This document shows, piece after piece, positions 3,319 through 12,733 of a stretch of 21,028 nt of DNA; positions within the stretch are counted from its first letter, which is position 1, and every line of letters begins with the position of its first letter. Source of the DNA: a virus; the IMG/VR virus record IMGVR_UViG_3300047668_001673, positions 1-21,028 of that record, one strand, 5' to 3'. The notes below the pieces were generated by a model. It worked only from the letters and a program-made list of their open reading frames with translations, made no database searches and had not been told where the DNA came from. A program made the translations under genes and the position numbers.

Positions 3319-5706
3319 TTAGTCCTCTGGCGTCAGTTTTCCGGGGCGCCAATAAAATTCCTGCTCGTAATTACGGCGCCGGTTGTTTTCTTGGGTTTTC
3401 ATGCGCTGCCTGGCTTTGTTGTCAAATTTAAGCGCCAATTGGTCTAGCACCAGGCGCTCGTAAGCAAGGCGTGCATACCACAATGATCCCACTACCGGCG
3501 TATAGCTTTTCATGGTTCTCACCATGTCGCCCGGCAGACTCATATCGTCGCCTTCTATTGCCTGGCCTAGCTGTCCGGCGGTCATTTTCACCGCGTCACT
3601 TGCAAGGCCCACCAGCGGACCACTAAATGTTGTGGCCAACGAACTGCCGAAACGATTACTGCCAAACACGCCGGTATAGAAGAAATCCCCAAAAATACCA
3701 GCGCCGCCGCCCTGGGTAAACGCCGCCGCCCAAAATGTCGAGTCGTTCATGTTCCTGGGCTCTCGGCCCCTTGCAATCTCTTTGAGCTGTAAAGCTAACG
3801 CGCCCATTACCGTCGTCGCCACTACGAGCTCAGCCATATAGGCCGCCTTTTTGCCTGTAGAGGCTTGGTTTAGGCCACGATAAAGGTGGCTTAGAATTAC
3901 AGCAACAGGGAAACTTTTAAACTGCATGCCACTGCGCATTGCCGTGCCTTCGATGCTGGTCCGGGAGAATCCTCCAGACGTTATGGCTCGGGTCCTGGCG
4001 TCGGGCATTGGTATGGCTGCCTTCGTGATCTCGTCGATAGTTTCCAGCACCAGGTTTTGAACTCTTTGTATTTCTGCCGCTGGCAAGTCTGTCCTGGCTG
4101 CCAGGTTAGGCAGAAACACCTGCTCCATCCCTTCGTGTGCATCCACCTTGGTCGTCCGTAAAACCTCCCAATCGCGGGCGGTAAAACCTCCCAGCTCTAA
4201 ACTGTTCCGGTTTTCCGTGGGCAGATCGTCCCAGGCGTTTTTCCGCAGCCCGGCCAGCGTTCCCAAAAACTCCCAGCCTATAGCCTTAGATGCTGCGTCA
4301 GTATGTGCAGACAGACCCGACACCCTTACCGTTAGGTCTGCCGCCCTTGCTGATAAGCCGGAACCTGTAACCTCACTGTATCTGTTCGCGTGCAGCGCCA
4401 GCGTGGTCCATGCCTCCGCGGTTAGGCCGAGCTGCACCGCCCGCAGCCGGTCCGCCGAGTTTGCAGGATTCAACAATTTAAGATATGTGCCCATCGCCCT
4501 GGTAGAACTTAGGCCATTCCATCGAGCGGTTTGTTGAAAAAACGCCAGGTCCGACACCGCCGACAGCATGGCCGAGCCTAGTTTGGCCGACGTTAAAAAG
4601 TTCCGCGCCGCTTCTAGGCGCTCGGCGGCCTCTATTGAAATACCATGCCCGGCCTTCCAGTTACCCGTCGCTACTGCATAAATAGCGTCAGCCATTCCCA
4701 GGTCAAAGTCTCCAGCGCCCCCCTGCTCTGCTATGTCCCGCAGTTTTCTGTAGCTGTGCGCTGGGTTTGGGCCAAGGATTTCAAGCTGTGCAATATCGCC
4801 CGCCATGTTTTCCAGGTGAGTCATTGCCGCCAAAAAAGGGTTATCGTTGCCAAACTTTCCCTGATATTCAAGCCAACTGTTAGCGTCCTTGAACACAAAA
4901 AACCGATGATCTGAGTGCCGATTAGCCAATTTTTTTCCGCCGATTACGCCCGGCGTGATTTTGTTCATTCCGTCTGTGCTAATAGTTGTATAGGCCGCGT
5001 CCAGGGCGTATTCAAACTCCATGTCCGTCAACAATCGCCCCTGGCCGTTTACCATTCTGGCGCGGTCTAACAAGGGCCGAATAAAGTCCTTCCACACGTC
5101 CGCCGTAACCGCCCGCACTGCCCTGGTGTTATGCCCTTGCGGCATTCCCCAACCAATCAACTTTGCGATTGAACCGCCCGCCTCGTTAAACCTTACCCTG
5201 GCATCCTCAAACACCTCAGCAAAGGCCTTCGCTGCCTTTACAGCGTTAGCGTTTCCCGTCGATTCGCCAAACAGCTCCCGTGCCATATCTCTGCCCAGGG
5301 CCATATCCTGCGAAAAACCCAAGTTTTTTGCCCGCAGATCATCTATTGCCTTGCCCAGCTTCATAGTGAAACTGCGCATTACAGCAGCGGATCGCTGGTC
5401 GATATTGCTGTTTCGGGACTGGACGGTCACATCGCGCGCCAGGATTCCCTGCAAGCCCCTGTGCGTGCCTTTCGGGTGATTCTTAACTATCTCTATGTTG
5501 GCGGCGTCCCGCGTCACCTGTAGGGCAGCCTGGCGCTTTTTCAGCGCAAGGGCAATATAGGCGTCGTCCATGACCGCTTTATTAAGGTTTTGAGTTCCCA
5601 GGTCCGCAAGCTCCGTTGCCGTTTTCTGGATTTCGGCAGCCTGTTCCTTGGAAATACGCCCAGCTTGGGCCGCGTCAAGTACACAATCTAATATTGAGTT
5701 CGCCAT
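3319..5706 (-). CDS. Large internal virion (ejection) protein, polyvalent-protein-like
   Basis: A 795-residue, mostly helical protein between the 1481-residue core protein and the tail spike, matching the place of the last core protein (gp16) in T7-like phages. Segments I recognise from large phage core and polyvalent proteins are HSDHRFFVFKDANSWLEYQGKFG (start 264), LGPNPAHSYRKLRDIAEQ (311-328) and the C-terminal run SLWYARLAYERLVLDQLALK (741-760), followed by a basic stretch and the ending YWRPGKLTPED. Residues about 620-710 are hydrophobic and Gly/Ala-rich (AELVVATTVMGALAL, then GGGAGIFGDFFYTGVFG), so this part may enter membranes. I see no lytic transglycosylase motif. ATG is preceded by AAAGGA at 6 bases, 2 bases after the previous stop, so translation is probably coupled. 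Being a core component is inferred from order and similarity; the exact job is unknown. Confidence 0.8.
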   Translation of the reverse strand: MANSILDCVLDAAQAGRISKEQAAEIQKTATELADLGTQNLNKAVMDDAYIALALKKRQAALQVTRDAANIEIVKNHPKGTHRGLQGILARDVTVQSRNSNIDQRSAAVMRSFTMKLGKAIDDLRAKNLGFSQDMALGRDMARELFGESTGNANAVKAAKAFAEVFEDARVRFNEAGGSIAKLIGWGMPQGHNTRAVRAVTADVWKDFIRPLLDRARMVNGQGRLLTDMEFEYALDAAYTTISTDGMNKITPGVIGGKKLANRHSDHRFFVFKDANSWLEYQGKFGNDNPFLAAMTHLENMAGDIAQLEILGPNPAHSYRKLRDIAEQGGAGDFDLGMADAIYAVATGNWKAGHGISIEAAERLEAARNFLTSAKLGSAMLSAVSDLAFFQQTARWNGLSSTRAMGTYLKLLNPANSADRLRAVQLGLTAEAWTTLALHANRYSEVTGSGLSARAADLTVRVSGLSAHTDAASKAIGWEFLGTLAGLRKNAWDDLPTENRNSLELGGFTARDWEVLRTTKVDAHEGMEQVFLPNLAARTDLPAAEIQRVQNLVLETIDEITKAAIPMPDARTRAITSGGFSRTSIEGTAMRSGMQFKSFPVAVILSHLYRGLNQASTGKKAAYMAELVVATTVMGALALQLKEIARGREPRNMNDSTFWAAAFTQGGGAGIFGDFFYTGVFGSNRFGSSLATTFSGPLVGLASDAVKMTAGQLGQAIEGDDMSLPGDMVRTMKSYTPVVGSLWYARLAYERLVLDQLALKFDNKARQRMKTQENNRRRNYEQEFYWRPGKLTPED

Positions 5707-5708
5707 AA

Positions 5709-8700
5709 TTATCCTTTAATGCAGGCCTCCAGGGCCTTTAATCCTTCCAGCTCATCGTCGAGCTCTTTTGCGTATTGGCGTGCGGATTTAAGGATCTCCG
5801 TGCCATCGTTGCGGTATCCGGCGGAAACCTCCATATCTTCCATATCCATCCGCGCCCTCGCAGCATCGAATAAATCGACGTTATTGGCAGGGTCCAGCGC
5901 CTCGTTGCCTGTATCTTTTGCCGCCTCTGCCAGCCTGGCGGCACCAACAACGCCCTGAGTTTTCTCTGCCAGCCTCTCGGCTTCTTGAACCTTAAGCGCC
6001 GCATTGTTCGCCCCGTTTTGGCTTAGGTTTTTGTGCCCCAGCTTTTCCAGCTCGGCCTCCATCCATGTGTGCATAGTCGCAGAAGAATCCCAAAGCCAAG
6101 TGTTACCAAGCTCGTCTTGGGTAGAGCGCGTCAATGGCAATAAGTCAGGGTTAACAACACCGTCGGCCTTCATTTCGGCCCTAATTGAAGCCGTAAACTG
6201 TTGCCGTTGCCCCATCGTGGGATTCTGCAAAACATCGACTGCGCGCCGGTTCACCCTTACCGTTAATTTTTTACTAGGAAGGACGGTTTTGCTTGCAGTA
6301 TCAACTACCTCGCCCGCTTCTCGTACAGGTGGCGCCCAGCTCCATTCGTGCAGACTGTTGCCCTCGGTGTATATATCTCCGGCCCTAACTTCACGACTGA
6401 CTACAACATGACCGCCGCCGCCAGGCTCGCCTACCGAACGCACGCCGTGGTCCTCTGCGTATTTCTTGCTAATGCTTACCCAATCGCCAGGGTTTATTTC
6501 ATCCATGCCCTCTGGTATTGCTCTATATACGGTAACAATCGAATCCGGATTGCCCCTAGCCTGCTTTATTATTTCCGCCGATTCCCTGCTAATATCATCG
6601 CCGTTTGAACCGTACAACCGTGCAGCGTCAGGGCTATAAATATCGTCAGGATAGATATTTGAAACATCATCTAAAGACGCACCGGGTTCCGGTTCAGGGG
6701 CCTCATGTTCCATACGATAAGAACCCGGCGCATCCATTGATTTTTCGCCGGTTTTTGGTATAATGTCGCTGGAGGTTTTAACTGTGTCTAAGGTATTGAT
6801 ATCACGCGACGGATCAACGGTTGTTGTATCAGAGCCGGGGTTTTTCGCAGTCAAGGAGGGCGCCGCCTGGTTGTCCAAACCCTCGGCCGGGCCTTTAACG
6901 GTTGGCGAAGTAGCCGAGGATTTTGTCCCGGTTAAAGATTCAGCCGAAGCTCTCATGTTAATCAAAGAAGCTCGGGCCTCAGCCTCAGTTACTCCGGTGC
7001 GCTCCAGCCCCGCCAAATAGGCAGCCTGGTAGCTGTCATAGCTCTCGGTTACATCGGCCTCATATTCAGCCGCCCGCTTCGGATCGGCCATAACCTTCGC
7101 ATAATCTTCGTCCCGCCATTTTTCAAAAAGAAGGTGATTAGTGCCTTTGGCTTCCTCAAGCTCGCGGAGCGGGATATACCACTCGACCAGTTGCCGGTTT
7201 GGCATCTGAATGTCATAGGCCACCATTCTCCAGCCCCATTCGCCGGGCTCTATAGCCTTTTCATAGTCGATCTTTACAAGCCTGGCCCCCGGCACTTGCT
7301 CAAGGAAAATTTCCAGGGCCTTATAAGAATCATCCACCGTATTCCCGGCCGTCTTGAATCGGAAGGAGTCCCGAATATGCTCCGCGCCAAACCAGGGCCG
7401 CTTTTTTAGTACAGAGGGCCGAGTAACCTTAGAGACAATCGTGGATAGCTTCTTAAAATTGGTTTTTGATTCGGTGCCCAGGGCTTTGTCAATCGCTGCA
7501 AGGGCCGGTTTCACAAGCGCATCGTTCGCTTTTGAGAGCTCCCGGAGCTCCAGGGCTTTTTCCATTGGCGTCGCGTTGCGTGATACCGGGTTAACTGGAT
7601 TGCCCTCCGGGTCCAGTTCGTCGGCTCTAAATGGGGCGTCCTTACGGACAGCATCCAAGCCCCTGGCCTCAATATCAGCATCCCGGAGCTGTCGCCTTTG
7701 CTCTGGTGTTAGGGTTTTTGCGTCGGCTTTTTTCTTGCGTAATCGGTTGAGCCGTTTCGTTTTGTTGCGATTGTCGGCCTTTTCGCGCTTGCTCAGTTTA
7801 GCGGGCCCGCTGGCCTCGGCCTTGTCGGCCGCCCTTACCCTGGCCGCTTCCGTAGCTTCGTCGATCGCCCGCTCTGCCGGATCGTCTACCGATCCCTTTA
7901 CTGCTGCGTCTACCGCCCGCCCTTCTGCCGGTTCAGCTCCACGATTGACCCCGCCAGGGCCATTATCCCCATCAATTTTGCGGCTGACATTTTCGAGTCC
8001 GCTGCTGACGTCTTTGATGACTCCGCCAACGACTGTTCCGGGCTTTTCGCCGTTGGCAATTCTTTGGGCGCCTCGGGTAATGGCTTCGCTAACTGGTCCG
8101 GTTGTGTTGGCGAGCCGCTCGATTTGGTTGAGTACGTTTTCTGCGTCTGTTTTTGCTTCAAGGTTTGCCTCCTGGTCGAGCTTATTGCCTTTGCCTGTTA
8201 TGGTCGTTTCGCGTTCCAACAACTGGTTAAAGGTTGCTTTTTCCTTTTTTAACCGCTTCATCATTGCGCCGATTAACTGCGCCCGTTCAATAAACAAATT
8301 GTTGGCAATATCTACATCGCCAAACAAATCTGTGGTTTTGCCTTGCGTAAAGCCCAACGCTTTAACCTGGTTAACTATCGACCTGGCCTCGTCAATGTTG
8401 CTCGGATCTGTTTTGCGTAACACGTCCAGCGCCTTTAATTGCTGCGCTTCGCCGCTTATGAGATCGCCAACAATCGCCGCATAACTCGGCTTTACGTCCC
8501 CATTAGCAACCAGGCCAAACGCATCGCCCTCCAGCTTTGCCAAACTTTGGCCTTGCGTGTAAGCCACGGATTTTTTGGTAATGGTTGCTTCCAATAGGTC
8601 CAGGGTGTCTTGATCCGTTACTTCGCGCAAAACCTTAGCGGCGTCTATGGCTGTGCCTTTGTCGTCTGCGATGTTTATCATTGCAGCCTCGACTCTGGCG

Positions 8701-10154
8701 TCTTTCGGCGTTACGCCGGTCGCCTCCCGCAGCCGAAAACCTTGCAGCACAACATCGGCAGGGTCTTGGCCAGCGGCCAGAGCCCGCTTTGCTAAACCGA
8801 GGCGCTGGTGTCCGTCGGCCACTATCAGCGTGCCGTCGGTCCTTTCATAAACTGTGATGATCCCCGCCTTAGAGCGGTCAAACCTAGATACCGACGTGAG
8901 CGCGTCCGTTACGCCCTCGGCATCGCCGCCTGCCTTGTACTGCATGAGCTTTGCATCGGTTTCCAACGTTGCCGGATTAAACTCCTCCAGCGTTTTGTTT
9001 GTGGCAAGTCTGCCGCCTGGCAATAACTGCTCCGACGGCACTATTGCCTCGACGTTAATCGGCGCCTGATCTTCAGCCTGGGCACGCGAAACGTCCACGG
9101 CCTCGCTGTGCTCCTTAGTGCCTGTGTTTGATGGCTTAGAAACATTGCGCCGGGTTATTTCTTCCGTAACCTCTTTAAGGCGCAGTGGGTCAACGCCAGA
9201 CTTAGCAAGCTGTTTCACCATTTGTTCGTTTTGCAATATTTCTTTAATGGCGGTATAGCTGCCGGTCCCGCGCTCGAAGCCTTTGGCTGCATAGACTCCA
9301 GTATCTATTAGACCACTTGCAGCGCCGCGCACAACGCCAGCGCCAAGGCTTACGGCTAAAACCGTCGCTAAAGCATCGGCTTTAGTATAAGGGCTGTCGA
9401 TACTCCGCTTATAATCAAAAACCTCTGTTTGTATGTATGTCTCCGAAACCCCAGCGATAGCGCCCTCAGTTAAAACGCCTTTGAGTATATTCGTCCCAAT
9501 GCCCGCGGCTGGCTTTAACCAGCCATACCCTAGAAGCATTGTCGCGGCGACCGCGGGATCTGTAAACGCCGCGCCCGCCGTGCCTGCCATGCTTGCAAGA
9601 CCAGAGCCGCGCTGCATAATAGATTGATTTTTTCTTCGCTTTTCTGCCAGGCCTTCGCTTAATCGGCCTAGCATTTTTTTGTCTGTTTCGATTATATCCG
9701 GAAACTCTACGCTGGCCCGGCGTATTAGCAATGCCTCATAGAGCGAGTCACGCCCTTCCGTCCCTTTGCTGAAATACATCCGGCGGCCTGCTTCTGTTGC
9801 AGCCACCATTTTTAGATTGTCGTCTAAAAATACATCGCCGTTATTTATTAAACCGTCGTTGTATTTCCTTTGCTCCTCACTTGGCAAATTTCGATAATGG
9901 CCATCCATTCCGTGGTAATCGGAGTCAAGATCCTGCAATGAAGCGACATTATAAACCTCTAATAACTTTTCCTGGCGGTCGGCATACGCGGGTCGCTCGT
10001 TCGTGTCTTGCGATGTTGAGAGCCCTTCCAGGCGCAAATTGGAAAAACCAGCGTCAACCGTCTGGCCAAACGTGGGCGTAGTTTGTTCAATGTGCCTGAC
10101 GCCTTCGCTCAGCTCTAGCTTTTTATTGTATTGTCCACCATAGAAGGAACTCAT
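5709..10154 (-). CDS. Giant internal virion protein with membrane region, ParB-like, RelA/SpoT-like and ART-like segments
   Basis: A 1481-residue protein whose ATG overlaps the previous stop (ATGA). Residues 1-180 are polar and helical. Residues 183-290 are Gly/Ala-rich and hydrophobic (ASMAGTAGAAFTDPAVAATM, then ATVLAVSLGAGVVRGAA), typical of podoviral ejection proteins that enter membranes. Residues about 367-475 look like a ParB/sulfiredoxin-fold domain, with DGTLIVADGHQRLGLAKRAL at 440-459. A Lys/Arg-rich linker lies at 788-812. Residues about 905-1015 resemble RelA/SpoT nucleotidyltransferases (HIRDSFRFK, GWRMVAYDIQMPN, LVEWYIPLRELEEAK, HLLFEKWR). Residues 1205-1276 resemble the ADP-ribosyltransferase domain of polyvalent proteins (VTVYRA, NPGDWVSISKKYAEDHG, EGNSLHEWSW). 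No lytic transglycosylase motif is visible. Position after the gp14- and gp15-like genes supports packaging and ejection. Enzyme activities are inferences from motif resemblance. Confidence 0.85.
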   Translation of the reverse strand: MSSFYGGQYNKKLELSEGVRHIEQTTPTFGQTVDAGFSNLRLEGLSTSQDTNERPAYADRQEKLLEVYNVASLQDLDSDYHGMDGHYRNLPSEEQRKYNDGLINNGDVFLDDNLKMVAATEAGRRMYFSKGTEGRDSLYEALLIRRASVEFPDIIETDKKMLGRLSEGLAEKRRKNQSIMQRGSGLASMAGTAGAAFTDPAVAATMLLGYGWLKPAAGIGTNILKGVLTEGAIAGVSETYIQTEVFDYKRSIDSPYTKADALATVLAVSLGAGVVRGAASGLIDTGVYAAKGFERGTGSYTAIKEILQNEQMVKQLAKSGVDPLRLKEVTEEITRRNVSKPSNTGTKEHSEAVDVSRAQAEDQAPINVEAIVPSEQLLPGGRLATNKTLEEFNPATLETDAKLMQYKAGGDAEGVTDALTSVSRFDRSKAGIITVYERTDGTLIVADGHQRLGLAKRALAAGQDPADVVLQGFRLREATGVTPKDARVEAAMINIADDKGTAIDAAKVLREVTDQDTLDLLEATITKKSVAYTQGQSLAKLEGDAFGLVANGDVKPSYAAIVGDLISGEAQQLKALDVLRKTDPSNIDEARSIVNQVKALGFTQGKTTDLFGDVDIANNLFIERAQLIGAMMKRLKKEKATFNQLLERETTITGKGNKLDQEANLEAKTDAENVLNQIERLANTTGPVSEAITRGAQRIANGEKPGTVVGGVIKDVSSGLENVSRKIDGDNGPGGVNRGAEPAEGRAVDAAVKGSVDDPAERAIDEATEAARVRAADKAEASGPAKLSKREKADNRNKTKRLNRLRKKKADAKTLTPEQRRQLRDADIEARGLDAVRKDAPFRADELDPEGNPVNPVSRNATPMEKALELRELSKANDALVKPALAAIDKALGTESKTNFKKLSTIVSKVTRPSVLKKRPWFGAEHIRDSFRFKTAGNTVDDSYKALEIFLEQVPGARLVKIDYEKAIEPGEWGWRMVAYDIQMPNRQLVEWYIPLRELEEAKGTNHLLFEKWRDEDYAKVMADPKRAAEYEADVTESYDSYQAAYLAGLERTGVTEAEARASLINMRASAESLTGTKSSATSPTVKGPAEGLDNQAAPSLTAKNPGSDTTTVDPSRDINTLDTVKTSSDIIPKTGEKSMDAPGSYRMEHEAPEPEPGASLDDVSNIYPDDIYSPDAARLYGSNGDDISRESAEIIKQARGNPDSIVTVYRAIPEGMDEINPGDWVSISKKYAEDHGVRSVGEPGGGGHVVVSREVRAGDIYTEGNSLHEWSWAPPVREAGEVVDTASKTVLPSKKLTVRVNRRAVDVLQNPTMGQRQQFTASIRAEMKADGVVNPDLLPLTRSTQDELGNTWLWDSSATMHTWMEAELEKLGHKNLSQNGANNAALKVQEAERLAEKTQGVVGAARLAEAAKDTGNEALDPANNVDLFDAARARMDMEDMEVSAGYRNDGTEILKSARQYAKELDDELEGLKALEACIKG

Positions 10155-12733
10155 TTACCGGAACCGAGCAGGTCTATATTGAAGAAGCCAGCGCCGCCAT
10201 AACCGATATACCCCTCCCTCCGGCTTGTTTCGCTAAACTGTGGAGTGTCCTCGTACTTAACGGTGAACTTGCTGCCATCCTTTTTTAAGAGATAGTCCCC
10301 GTTTTCTAGGCGCACACAAAACTCGCCGCCAGGTCCCGCAGGCTCTAAGCGCCCTTGGTCCTTATAAATATCAAAAGCCATTTCCGCGTCCGCGTAGTTC
10401 GCCGCCTCCATGTCCTTGTGGATTAGCTTTTCGGCCTCTACTGCCTCCTCTACGGTGCTGTATGACGGCCAAACCATGCCGTCGGCTTGTGTGGTTTCTA
10501 CAAAATCACGCCAGGCCTTAAATTCTTCCGGGTTATCTAAATTGTATTCCTGTCCCGTTTTCGGGTTGTATGTGGCGACCAATGTGGCGCGTCCGTTGTT
10601 TAGGAACTCCTCATTGACAACCGCACCCTTAAATGACGTAACTTCGCCGCCTGGCTGCACTTTTGCGCCGCCGCTTGTGGCCACGCCGTCAGACCAGGCA
10701 AGAATTTCCTTTGCCCCAAAAACCCCGGCGCTGTTTATAGGCGCCTTATTTACCTCGCGTCTGCTAGTTATCACCGCCGCATCTACAAAATTTTCGGCAG
10801 TTAAGTCCTGACGCCAATAATTAAAAGCATCCTGATTAACGTCCCGCCTTGGTGTCGGATACTTAACGCCGTCTATTGAGATCATGCCGCCCGTCGCTAC
10901 CCGCACCGCCTGGTCTAGCAGGCTGCCGTCGATTACATCATCTGCTGGCAGGCCTTGCTTGTACCTGAGTCCGGCATACGCATCCGCTATGGCATTATCT
11001 GCCACGCCTCTGGCGTGAGAGCCATATCCGTTATAAGCCACTGGCCCGATTCGTGAATCAAGCTCGGTTATAAATTTATCGTTGCTTGGGAATTGACCTT
11101 TTCCAAGGTTTTTTCGTATATCTCCCCCGGCTATTATTGTTTTTACGTTTGTGCCCGTTGGATCGTCTAGTAACACTCCACCAAGAAACGCCATTGGTGA
11201 TGCGCCGTTTTTATCCAATGCCTCGAACGTCGCCTGCTGTACTTGCGGATTACTGTCCGAGCTAACTATCTCACGCAGGATCCCGGCCTTTGTGTTTACG
11301 TCGCCTTTTGTATAAGCAACACTTAGAGCGTCTATTTGTTCGGCAGGAAACCCTGTTACCGGCCTACCTAACTGCCTGGATAGTATCTCGCCATTCGTTG
11401 CGGCCTGTTTGTAAGTGTCCGACTCGTTTAAGCCGCCCTTTATTTCTTCCGTCAAGCCCATGACGTTACCGTAATGAGCCGGGTCGCTTGCAATTAGTTC
11501 ACCTTGCGCCTTGTGAGTTGCTTTAAGAGCATCCAGCAAAGATTGATCGCCGCCGCTATAGTTTTCCGCTAGGTCTATTTCTCGGGTTTCTATTATTGCC
11601 CTTTGCATGTCTGGTGTCAGATTGTGAAAATTGGCTTTAGCCATCCATGACATGACATTTGTATCAATAATATTGCTGCTGTCGCCCGACTCGGCGGCCT
11701 TTGCAAACACATCCTCTGCTCGCTCTGGCAATGAGCCCGTTACTGCAAACTCCTTCTGGATCCTATCCACCTCGTCGGTCAGCATTTTGGCGTTCTGTTT
11801 GTCCCTCGCCTTGGCCGCTGCCGCTTCTCGGTTTTCCAGTATTACCTGCTGATTGATCTGCCGCTCTATTGCGTTCTGTACAACGCCCAGCTCTTTCGGT
11901 GACAGGTCACCAGGCTCATAACCAAGGTCTGCCAGGTCCAGCTTTTTCAAATTCTCCGCAAACGCCAGTCCACCCTCTAGGCCATCCCGATCCATGACAC
12001 GCGCAAACTGCCCCAGGATCACCTGTTTATCCATTTCCTTGTCTATTGTCAGACCAAGTTCTGCCGTCTTTAATGGACTTAAACCCAAGCCGCCATCTTG
12101 CTCCGGCAGGGCCGCATTCCTAAGTGATAGTTGGTATTTTTCGCTCAGTTCGCCCAAAACCTCTGCGTTACCATCATTGGCGGCGTTTAGCAGGTCGGTC
12201 CGCTCTTGGTCCAGGTTTGTTAGCAGGGCCGCCTCCTGCACCGCCCGCTCGCGTTTATAAATACGGGCGCTAATTCTCTGGCTGGCGCCCATGCTTATGG
12301 AATCCACCTGGTTCTTAATCATCCCATGCAGGCGAGGATCTGCGGTTTTCATAACTCCGCTATAGGCCCCTTCTACCGCCGCGTTATAACCATCCAGGTC
12401 CTCCGAGTTTAGAAGTTCCTGCTCGCCCACAACCTGGCGAATGTCTATTTGAAGCTCGGCCTGGTAGGCATCGACCGCAGACTTATTGAATGCCGCGCTT
12501 GCAACTGAATCACCTTCCTGCAATGTCGGCGGCGTATAGGCGCCCATCGAACCTGCGGCCAGGCCCTTTTCTGCGCTATCTCGCGCCGTTGCTTGTGTTA
12601 GGTTTTTTGTTATGCTCCGACGTCCAGCGGCCAGGCGCACCTCTAACCCTTGCCACATCTGCGCCTCGCTTGGGTTTGCGGCTATTGCTTGCGGGCTTGG
12701 ATCGAACTCTAAGCGTTTTGCTTTTGGAGGCAT
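10151..12733 (-). CDS. Internal virion protein, gp15-like position
   Basis: An 860-residue helical protein between the gp14-like gene and the 1481-residue core protein, which is the place of gp15 in T7-like phages. I chose the ATG at 12731-12733 (MPPKAKRLEF), 10 bases after the previous stop with GAGAA just upstream. The frame extends to a TTG at 12769 that would overlap the gp14-like gene; that start has no good ribosome-binding site. The N-terminal half is rich in Ala, Gln and Glu helices (for example SAAFNKSAVDAYQAELQIDIRQV and a likely coiled coil around ENREAAAAKARDKQNAKMLTDEVDRI). The C-terminal part is more mixed (MVWPSYSTVEEAVEAEKLIHK, then GGEFCVRLENGDYLLKKDGS). No membrane segment and no catalytic motif is evident. 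In T7 the gp14-gp15-gp16 proteins form the core and then the envelope-spanning ejection channel; by order this protein should belong to that complex. Confidence 0.8.
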   Translation of the reverse strand: MPPKAKRLEFDPSPQAIAANPSEAQMWQGLEVRLAAGRRSITKNLTQATARDSAEKGLAAGSMGAYTPPTLQEGDSVASAAFNKSAVDAYQAELQIDIRQVVGEQELLNSEDLDGYNAAVEGAYSGVMKTADPRLHGMIKNQVDSISMGASQRISARIYKRERAVQEAALLTNLDQERTDLLNAANDGNAEVLGELSEKYQLSLRNAALPEQDGGLGLSPLKTAELGLTIDKEMDKQVILGQFARVMDRDGLEGGLAFAENLKKLDLADLGYEPGDLSPKELGVVQNAIERQINQQVILENREAAAAKARDKQNAKMLTDEVDRIQKEFAVTGSLPERAEDVFAKAAESGDSSNIIDTNVMSWMAKANFHNLTPDMQRAIIETREIDLAENYSGGDQSLLDALKATHKAQGELIASDPAHYGNVMGLTEEIKGGLNESDTYKQAATNGEILSRQLGRPVTGFPAEQIDALSVAYTKGDVNTKAGILREIVSSDSNPQVQQATFEALDKNGASPMAFLGGVLLDDPTGTNVKTIIAGGDIRKNLGKGQFPSNDKFITELDSRIGPVAYNGYGSHARGVADNAIADAYAGLRYKQGLPADDVIDGSLLDQAVRVATGGMISIDGVKYPTPRRDVNQDAFNYWRQDLTAENFVDAAVITSRREVNKAPINSAGVFGAKEILAWSDGVATSGGAKVQPGGEVTSFKGAVVNEEFLNNGRATLVATYNPKTGQEYNLDNPEEFKAWRDFVETTQADGMVWPSYSTVEEAVEAEKLIHKDMEAANYADAEMAFDIYKDQGRLEPAGPGGEFCVRLENGDYLLKKDGSKFTVKYEDTPQFSETSRREGYIGYGGAGFFNIDLLGSGK

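Follow-up and report, generated by a model that had tools for sequence, protein, structure and literature searches.

A putative carrier protein in the ejection-gene cluster of a short-tailed phage and its terminal cysteine pair with the next virion protein

What is a very large protein with several enzyme-like domains doing among the ejection genes of a short-tailed phage, and how might it be joined to its neighbours? These questions are raised by IMGVR_UViG_3300047668_001673, a phage fragment kept as a virus record and analyzed here as a window of 21,028 nucleotides (nt), the whole stretch of DNA. The window contains an open reading frame (ORF) at 5709-10154 that is translated into exactly 1481 residues (P0001). 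A previous sequence-only reading had described a core protein of this size at this position, carrying several effector-like segments; its length and coordinates hold, and it is encoded on the minus strand.

The genes on this strand are ordered as portal (Pfam Head-tail_con, E 5e-53), scaffold-like, major capsid, gp11-like, gp12-like, gp14-like, gp15-like, P0001, a virion structural protein of PHROG 684, and tail spike. At 96 loci with a ParB-bearing relative, a gp12-like gene was found nearby in 81 and a PHROG 684 gene in 77. Because the gp11-, gp12-, gp14- and gp15-like genes precede P0001 and PHROG 684 follows it, in the window and in the relatives, we conclude that P0001 occupies the slot of the gp16 ejection protein. 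Synteny thus bears out the earlier placement among core or ejection proteins. That account had overlooked the most surprising and most testable feature of P0001, namely the terminal cysteine pair that it shares with the next protein.

The terminal cysteine pair

C1478 is the sole Cys of P0001 and lies four residues from the end of the C-terminal region (1478 of 1481), and C8 is the sole Cys of the following PHROG 684 protein, P0003. When 40 C-terminal regions were aligned, the Cys was the only invariant column. Among the complete ParB-bearing proteins shorter than 2000 residues, 79/80 had a Cys among their final 12 residues, which was the sole Cys in 75/80. The PHROG 684 protein encoded next had exactly one Cys, near its N-terminus, in 70 of the 73 cases, and its head Cys column was invariant in two family alignments. 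The gp15-like proteins are nearly Cys-free.

A scan with the 684 family gave loci at which the upstream proteins are mostly without ParB and yet keep the tail Cys, usually 4-7 residues from the end, together with the head Cys of the 684 protein. The pair (position and length upstream, then position downstream) was found in phiV10 (C596/600 and C5), VP5 (C386/390 and C5), BcepC6B (C757/763 and C5), YA3 (C634/640 and C5), SI2 (C790/792 and C6) and ZCVPP1 (C612/615 and C20), and prophage loci of bacterial genomes agree with it. Both terminal Cys were present in 60 of the 62 split clusters of the first set and in 96/101 of an enlarged set of phages and prophages, for which all sets were combined and clustered at 65% identity. 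We read the five exceptions as mostly apparent problems of ORF calling or adjacency: L058 has an intervening gene, and its ParB protein does keep the tail Cys; the tail of L279 is longer; L381 and L382 seem to have reading-frame problems; and the start of L408 seems over-extended. We also weighed, and discarded, an origin of the pair at the nucleotide level, as its two codons belong to separate genes, with about 36 nt between them, and non-adjacent genes still retain the pair (ZCVPP1, L058).

In some relatives, the upstream protein and the PHROG 684 protein are encoded as one ORF of 1818-2914 residues if complete (L252, L255, L268, L273, L295-L316 and others). These ORFs are true fusions, because 35/35 show homology to the upstream protein in their N-terminal part and none shows it there to gp15-like proteins, and because a gp15-like gene precedes 31/31 of them. 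There was no Cys at all in 37 of the 41 fused ORFs, some of which are cut by contig ends, and in 6/6 clusters; the other four comprise two with a single Cys in an apparent over-extended start and two with an internal Cys cluster. The tree indicated at least two changes between the fused and split states. Since the Cys pair is present in the split proteins and absent from the fused ones, we infer, as the simplest reading of these sequences, that two thiols may replace a peptide bond, i.e., that an inter-protein disulfide may be formed.

Several points weigh against this. A Cys close to the N-terminus is also frequent in gp11-like proteins, and a terminal Cys by itself is therefore no unique feature; because the cytoplasm in which virions are assembled is reducing, any disulfide would have to arise late; and the evidence for the second fusion is a single ORF at a contig edge (L413). 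The frequent N-terminal Cys of the gp11-like proteins and the reducing site of assembly also speak for another explanation, in which the terminal Cys belong to a non-covalent docking motif or to rings of the same protein, with no disulfide between the two proteins. Docking is plausible because further positions of the tails are conserved and the tails resemble short helices. However, it is the Cys itself that is invariant, in proteins that otherwise nearly exclude this residue, and both Cys are gone from the fused proteins. We regard docking as a possible, rather doubtful explanation and keep the disulfide as the preferred one.

Some minor observations were made on the same proteins. A Cys was seen within the first 25 residues in 87% of the distinct gp11-like proteins of L010-L089, and the gp11-like protein of the window has none. 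The internal Cys cluster of the fused proteins of L355 (residues 955-1167 of 2369) and L318 is possibly a metal-binding insert. The fused ORF at the contig edge of L413 (2-5236) has a zincin-like HExxH motif (HETQH) upstream of its 684 part.

For the ordered exit of podophage ejection proteins from the head and their assembly outside it, a Cys pair present in split and absent from fused ejection proteins points to a specific, easily tested link between the two proteins. We lean towards the view that widespread podophages build one ejected chain from two proteins via a reducible disulfide between lone Cys, with the cargo tethered to it and freed in the cytoplasm, and that elsewhere a gene fusion does the same job without Cys. 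The papers on ejection proteins PMC8954989, PMC10386132, PMC13320782 and PMC12633501 make no mention of cysteines or disulfides; as most of the subscription literature lies outside this search, the missing report is no proof of novelty.

Domains of the 1481-residue protein

Direct scans of P0001 against Pfam and NCBIfam gave nothing usable, and PDB sequence searches with the protein and its profiles gave no credible relative. The viral scan returned only an identical fragment for the whole protein and no match for the single Rel segment; alignments were needed. Two PHROG matches were obtained, to PHROG 10691 (without function; residues 343-721; E 2e-40) and to PHROG 2579 (named 'ParB C-terminal domain'; residues 1139-1280; E 1e-33). 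In tblastn searches against phages, separate parts of P0001 matched separate phage proteins. Family alignments were seeded from these proteins, and AlphaFold models were built from the alignments. The viral loci reached in this way numbered at least 574 for the ParB-like part, 213 for the ART-like (ADP-ribosyltransferase-like) part and 41 for the Rel-like part. As each segment has its own wide family, the three domains are not a product of chance.

The protein begins with an N-terminal module whose homologues stand at the same position in, for example, Vibrio phage ZCVPP1, L010 and L018. Its region 183-290, a putative membrane-active segment in the sequence-only reading, is more hydrophobic than the remainder of P0001 (mean Kyte-Doolittle (KD) hydropathy 0.55 vs -0.53; best 19-mer starting at residue 265, KD 1.69) and is kept at the same position in relatives.

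The model of residues 380-1045 had a mean pLDDT (predicted local distance difference test) of 84. Within it, residues ~382-601 matched the Noc/ParB N-domain and the helix-turn-helix (HTH) domain that follows it (Foldseek, Noc 7nfu, E 4.5e-5; VIA, Z 10.1 with ParB 6t1f over 183 residues at 4.5 A and Z 9.8 with 7nfu over 200 residues at 4.7 A). The HTH part itself gave VIA Z 8.6 (4umk) and 7.7 (6y93). According to the models, this segment has a ParB/Noc fold, and the ParB-like context proposed earlier for the motif DGHQR at 447-451 is borne out by both structural searches. The motif is conserved, and N494 is kept in 46/46 rows. The nucleotide-box residues of ParB are the GxxR box and the ENxxR box, and in chromosomal ParB the residue before the conserved Asn is Glu. 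Glu precedes N494 in none of the 46 relatives, and CTP hydrolysis is therefore doubtful.

The ParB domains of phages have been read as DdrB-like NTPase/DNase domains (PMC5512222), and the ParB-like part of P0001 might accordingly be a DdrB-type nuclease or nucleotidase instead of a DNA clamp. The conserved DGHQR box suits that proposal as well. Against it stand the invariant N494 and the continuation of the model into the HTH DNA-binding domain. Because of the HTH, DNA binding is favoured and a clamp is likelier than a nuclease, which we consider improbable though not negligible. The sequence-only reading is refined here to a predicted ParB/Noc module with HTH.

Residues ~859-1045 matched small alarmone synthetases (Foldseek, RelP 6ex0, E 8e-5; VIA, Z 12.9 with Rel over 137 residues at 3.6 A, 12.5 with RelP over 158 residues at 3.4 A, 11.4 with CapRel and 10.7 with Tas1). 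The model indicates that this is a RelA/SpoT synthetase fold, and the segment 905-1015 that had been singled out lies inside this larger domain. The family-conserved residues K909, R912, S914, D929, R932, E991 and H1007 are intact in P0001; D929 and E991, conserved in 21 family rows, are candidates for the catalytic Asp and Glu expected in this order in a synthetase. It should be noted that in L170-L210 the Rel-like domain occurs in phage proteins of about 2200-3100 residues, in which the ParB-like part was not detected.

The model of residues 1135-1310 (pLDDT 82) had Vis (E 0.077) and ExoS as its top Foldseek matches and KptA/Tpt1, CNFy, Vis and ParT as its top VIA rows, with Z at most 4.7. 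Nearly all of the best matches are proteins of the ART superfamily or ART-like proteins, yet they are weak, and this low significance tells against the assignment. H1150, R1211, D1224-W1225 and E1270, conserved in an alignment of 50 sequences, are intact in P0001, and R1211, the S/T at 1227 and E1270 follow one another in the order of the active-site residues of the RSE clade (R-S/T-E), which they may represent. An ART-like fold (~1146-1280) is thus predicted within the domain of residues ~1139-1290 with lower confidence than the ParB and Rel folds, given its weaker statistics. The ART-like segment recognized earlier (1205-1276) falls inside this domain, and the three proposed folds all found structural counterparts in Foldseek, the ART fold weakly.

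The 'ParB C-terminal domain' label given to the ART-like domain in PHROG 2579 and RefSeq looks misleading. The same domain is a stand-alone protein of 129 residues in Mycobacterium phage Pumpkin (gp129; L008 2992-3381). The model of residues 1135-1310 also resembles, weakly, chain 9k3a_B of the cyanophage A4 pre-ejectosome (VIA Z 2.3).

The exchangeable cassette

The relatives keep the N-module, the ParB-like module and the tail, and they vary between ParB and the tail, where a Rel-like domain, a zeta-toxin-like domain or nothing is found. For this, pairwise comparisons and Pfam counts were used; a first classification was dropped, as its labels were contaminated by the shared tail. A pooled control row ('CARGO') was likewise set aside, as it combines unrelated giant proteins. 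On the stretches from ParB to the C-terminus, Pfam detected Zeta_toxin in 15/40 and RelA_SpoT in 1/40, and the Rel-like domain of P0001 itself was too divergent for detection by Pfam. SI2, L076 and L088 are free of any cassette, and Vibrio phage ZCVPP1 keeps the N-module and the tail without ParB.

The exchange is best seen in pairs of close relatives. On the upstream side of the cassette (near 9242-10183), L061 and L065 share 97.4% identity over 8.0 kb, and on its downstream side 95.9% over 3.4 kb; at the same point the former has a Walker-A zeta-like domain and the latter a Rel-like domain. Similarly, the flanks of L068 (819 residues, no cassette) and L075 (1053 residues, Rel-like) are ~92% identical. 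Among the ParB-bearing tail-Cys proteins sampled, Rel-like and ART-like domains were found together in P0001 only. By these comparisons, the conserved carrier bears any one of several interchangeable cassettes, here the Rel and ART part. The multi-effector anatomy proposed before is retained with this refinement. Sequences and models together show a carrier predicted to consist of a hydrophobic N-module, a ParB/Noc-type module, the exchangeable cassette and the single-Cys tail. Phages thus exchange candidates for injected effectors, of alarmone-synthetase-like, zeta-toxin-like or ART-like type, while the delivery protein stays fixed, and their effector repertoire could therefore be read from sequence.

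The cassette might instead act in the phage-producing cell, in host takeover or in the exclusion of other phages, since toxin-antitoxin and defence systems commonly contain Rel-like, zeta-like and ART-like folds and mycobacteriophages carry a stand-alone ART-like gene far from the virion genes. We consider this unlikely: the cassette is fused into an ejection protein, with the N-module before it and the conserved tail after it, and many phages carry the cassette-bearing protein in the ejection-gene cluster. Least likely of all, decayed domains or purely structural spacers would agree with the reuse of folds by virion proteins and with the relatives lacking any cassette, but P0001 retains the residues conserved family-wide, among them charged ones such as would be expected in catalysis, and whole cassettes are replaced by unrelated enzyme-like domains.

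Proposed mechanism, known systems and features of the window

P0001 is probably a gp16-class ejection protein acting as a carrier, whose cassette is injected as cargo and whose C-terminal Cys is linked to the PHROG 684 protein. Its packaging, injection and enzymatic activity are inferred from sequences and models. P0001 would leave the head before or with the DNA, and the N-module would help to form a conduit through the envelope. In the cytoplasm, the ParB/HTH module would bind the incoming DNA. The synthetase-like domain could make an alarmone or pyrophosphorylate a nucleotide or an RNA of the host, and a host target could be ADP-ribosylated by the ART-like domain; these two activities would restrain the growth or defence of the host as infection begins. 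Joined through the C-terminal Cys of P0001 and the N-terminal Cys of the PHROG 684 protein, in the simplest case by a disulfide, the two proteins would behave as one chain during ejection and would be separable in the reducing cytoplasm.

This arrangement resembles the ejection proteins of the T7 gp16/epsilon15 gp16 type (PMC8954989) in its gp14-, gp15-, gp16-like order and in the presumed role as a trans-envelope conduit, although no relation between P0001 and T7 gp16 was found by sequence. p19 of phiV10, a relative of epsilon15 gp16 by similarity, stands at the same position and likewise bears the tail Cys; unlike this protein of 600 residues, P0001 adds ParB, synthetase-like and ART-like domains. 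The virion RNA polymerase of N4 (gp50) is a different enzyme, and no sequence relation to P0001 was found. The Rel-like domain shares its fold and conserved charged residues with small alarmone synthetases and toxSAS (RelP, CapRel, Tas1) and differs from them in standing inside a virion-type protein.

Among phage polyvalent proteins, ParB-like, RelA/SpoT and ART domains have already been described (PMC5512222; Iyer et al. 2017), and the link drawn to them by the sequence-only reading is sound. Like them, P0001 combines several enzyme-like and DNA-related domains in one polypeptide (the ParB/HTH and alarmone-synthetase-like folds, and less firmly the ART-like one) and adjoins late virion genes (gp11-, gp12-, gp14-, gp15-like and PHROG 684). 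Unlike them, it bears these domains on a conserved gp16-slot carrier with a fixed N-module, ParB with HTH and a Cys tail, and the variable part of its family is one internal cassette, with zeta-toxin domains in relatives; the phrase 'zeta toxin' is absent from a text search of PMC5512222.

Table 1. Positions of P0001, its predicted parts and neighbouring ejection and virion proteins in the window.
Feature	Position	Strand	Basis
P0001, gp16-slot ejection protein, 1481 residues, ParB-like, alarmone-synthetase-like and ART-like	5709..10154	-	ORF, translation, synteny
N-terminal module, residues 1-345, with Gly/Ala-rich hydrophobic region 183-290 (window 9285-9608)	9120..10154	-	same-position homologues, hydropathy
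ParB/Noc-like module, residues ~382-601: predicted ParB N-domain (D447-GHQ-R451, N494), then HTH	8352..9011	-	AlphaFold model, Foldseek, VIA, conserved residues
Conserved helical continuation of the ParB-like region, residues 602-725	7980..8351	-	PHROG 10691, alignment, model
Predicted small-alarmone-synthetase (RelA/SpoT) fold, residues ~859-1045	7020..7580	-	Foldseek, VIA, conservation
ADP-ribosyltransferase-like domain (lower confidence), residues ~1139-1290	6285..6740	-	alignment of 50, model, Foldseek and VIA
Conserved C-terminal tail, residues 1450-1481, ending in ALEACIKG; C1478 codon 5721-5723	5712..5807	-	Cys counts of homologues
Partner protein P0003, 795 residues, PHROG 684 virion structural protein (E 9e-165); C8 codon 5683-5685	3319..5706	-	PHROG match, Cys counts
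gp15-like ejection protein P0004, 872 residues	10151..12769	-	synteny, similarity to ZCVPP1 protein
gp14-like internal virion protein P0005	12744..13244	-	PHROG 418 internal virion protein, E 6e-5

Another viral contig (L002, 7996-8376) encodes residues 1-127 of P0001 at 100% identity, and therefore the same or a very near phage has been sampled elsewhere.
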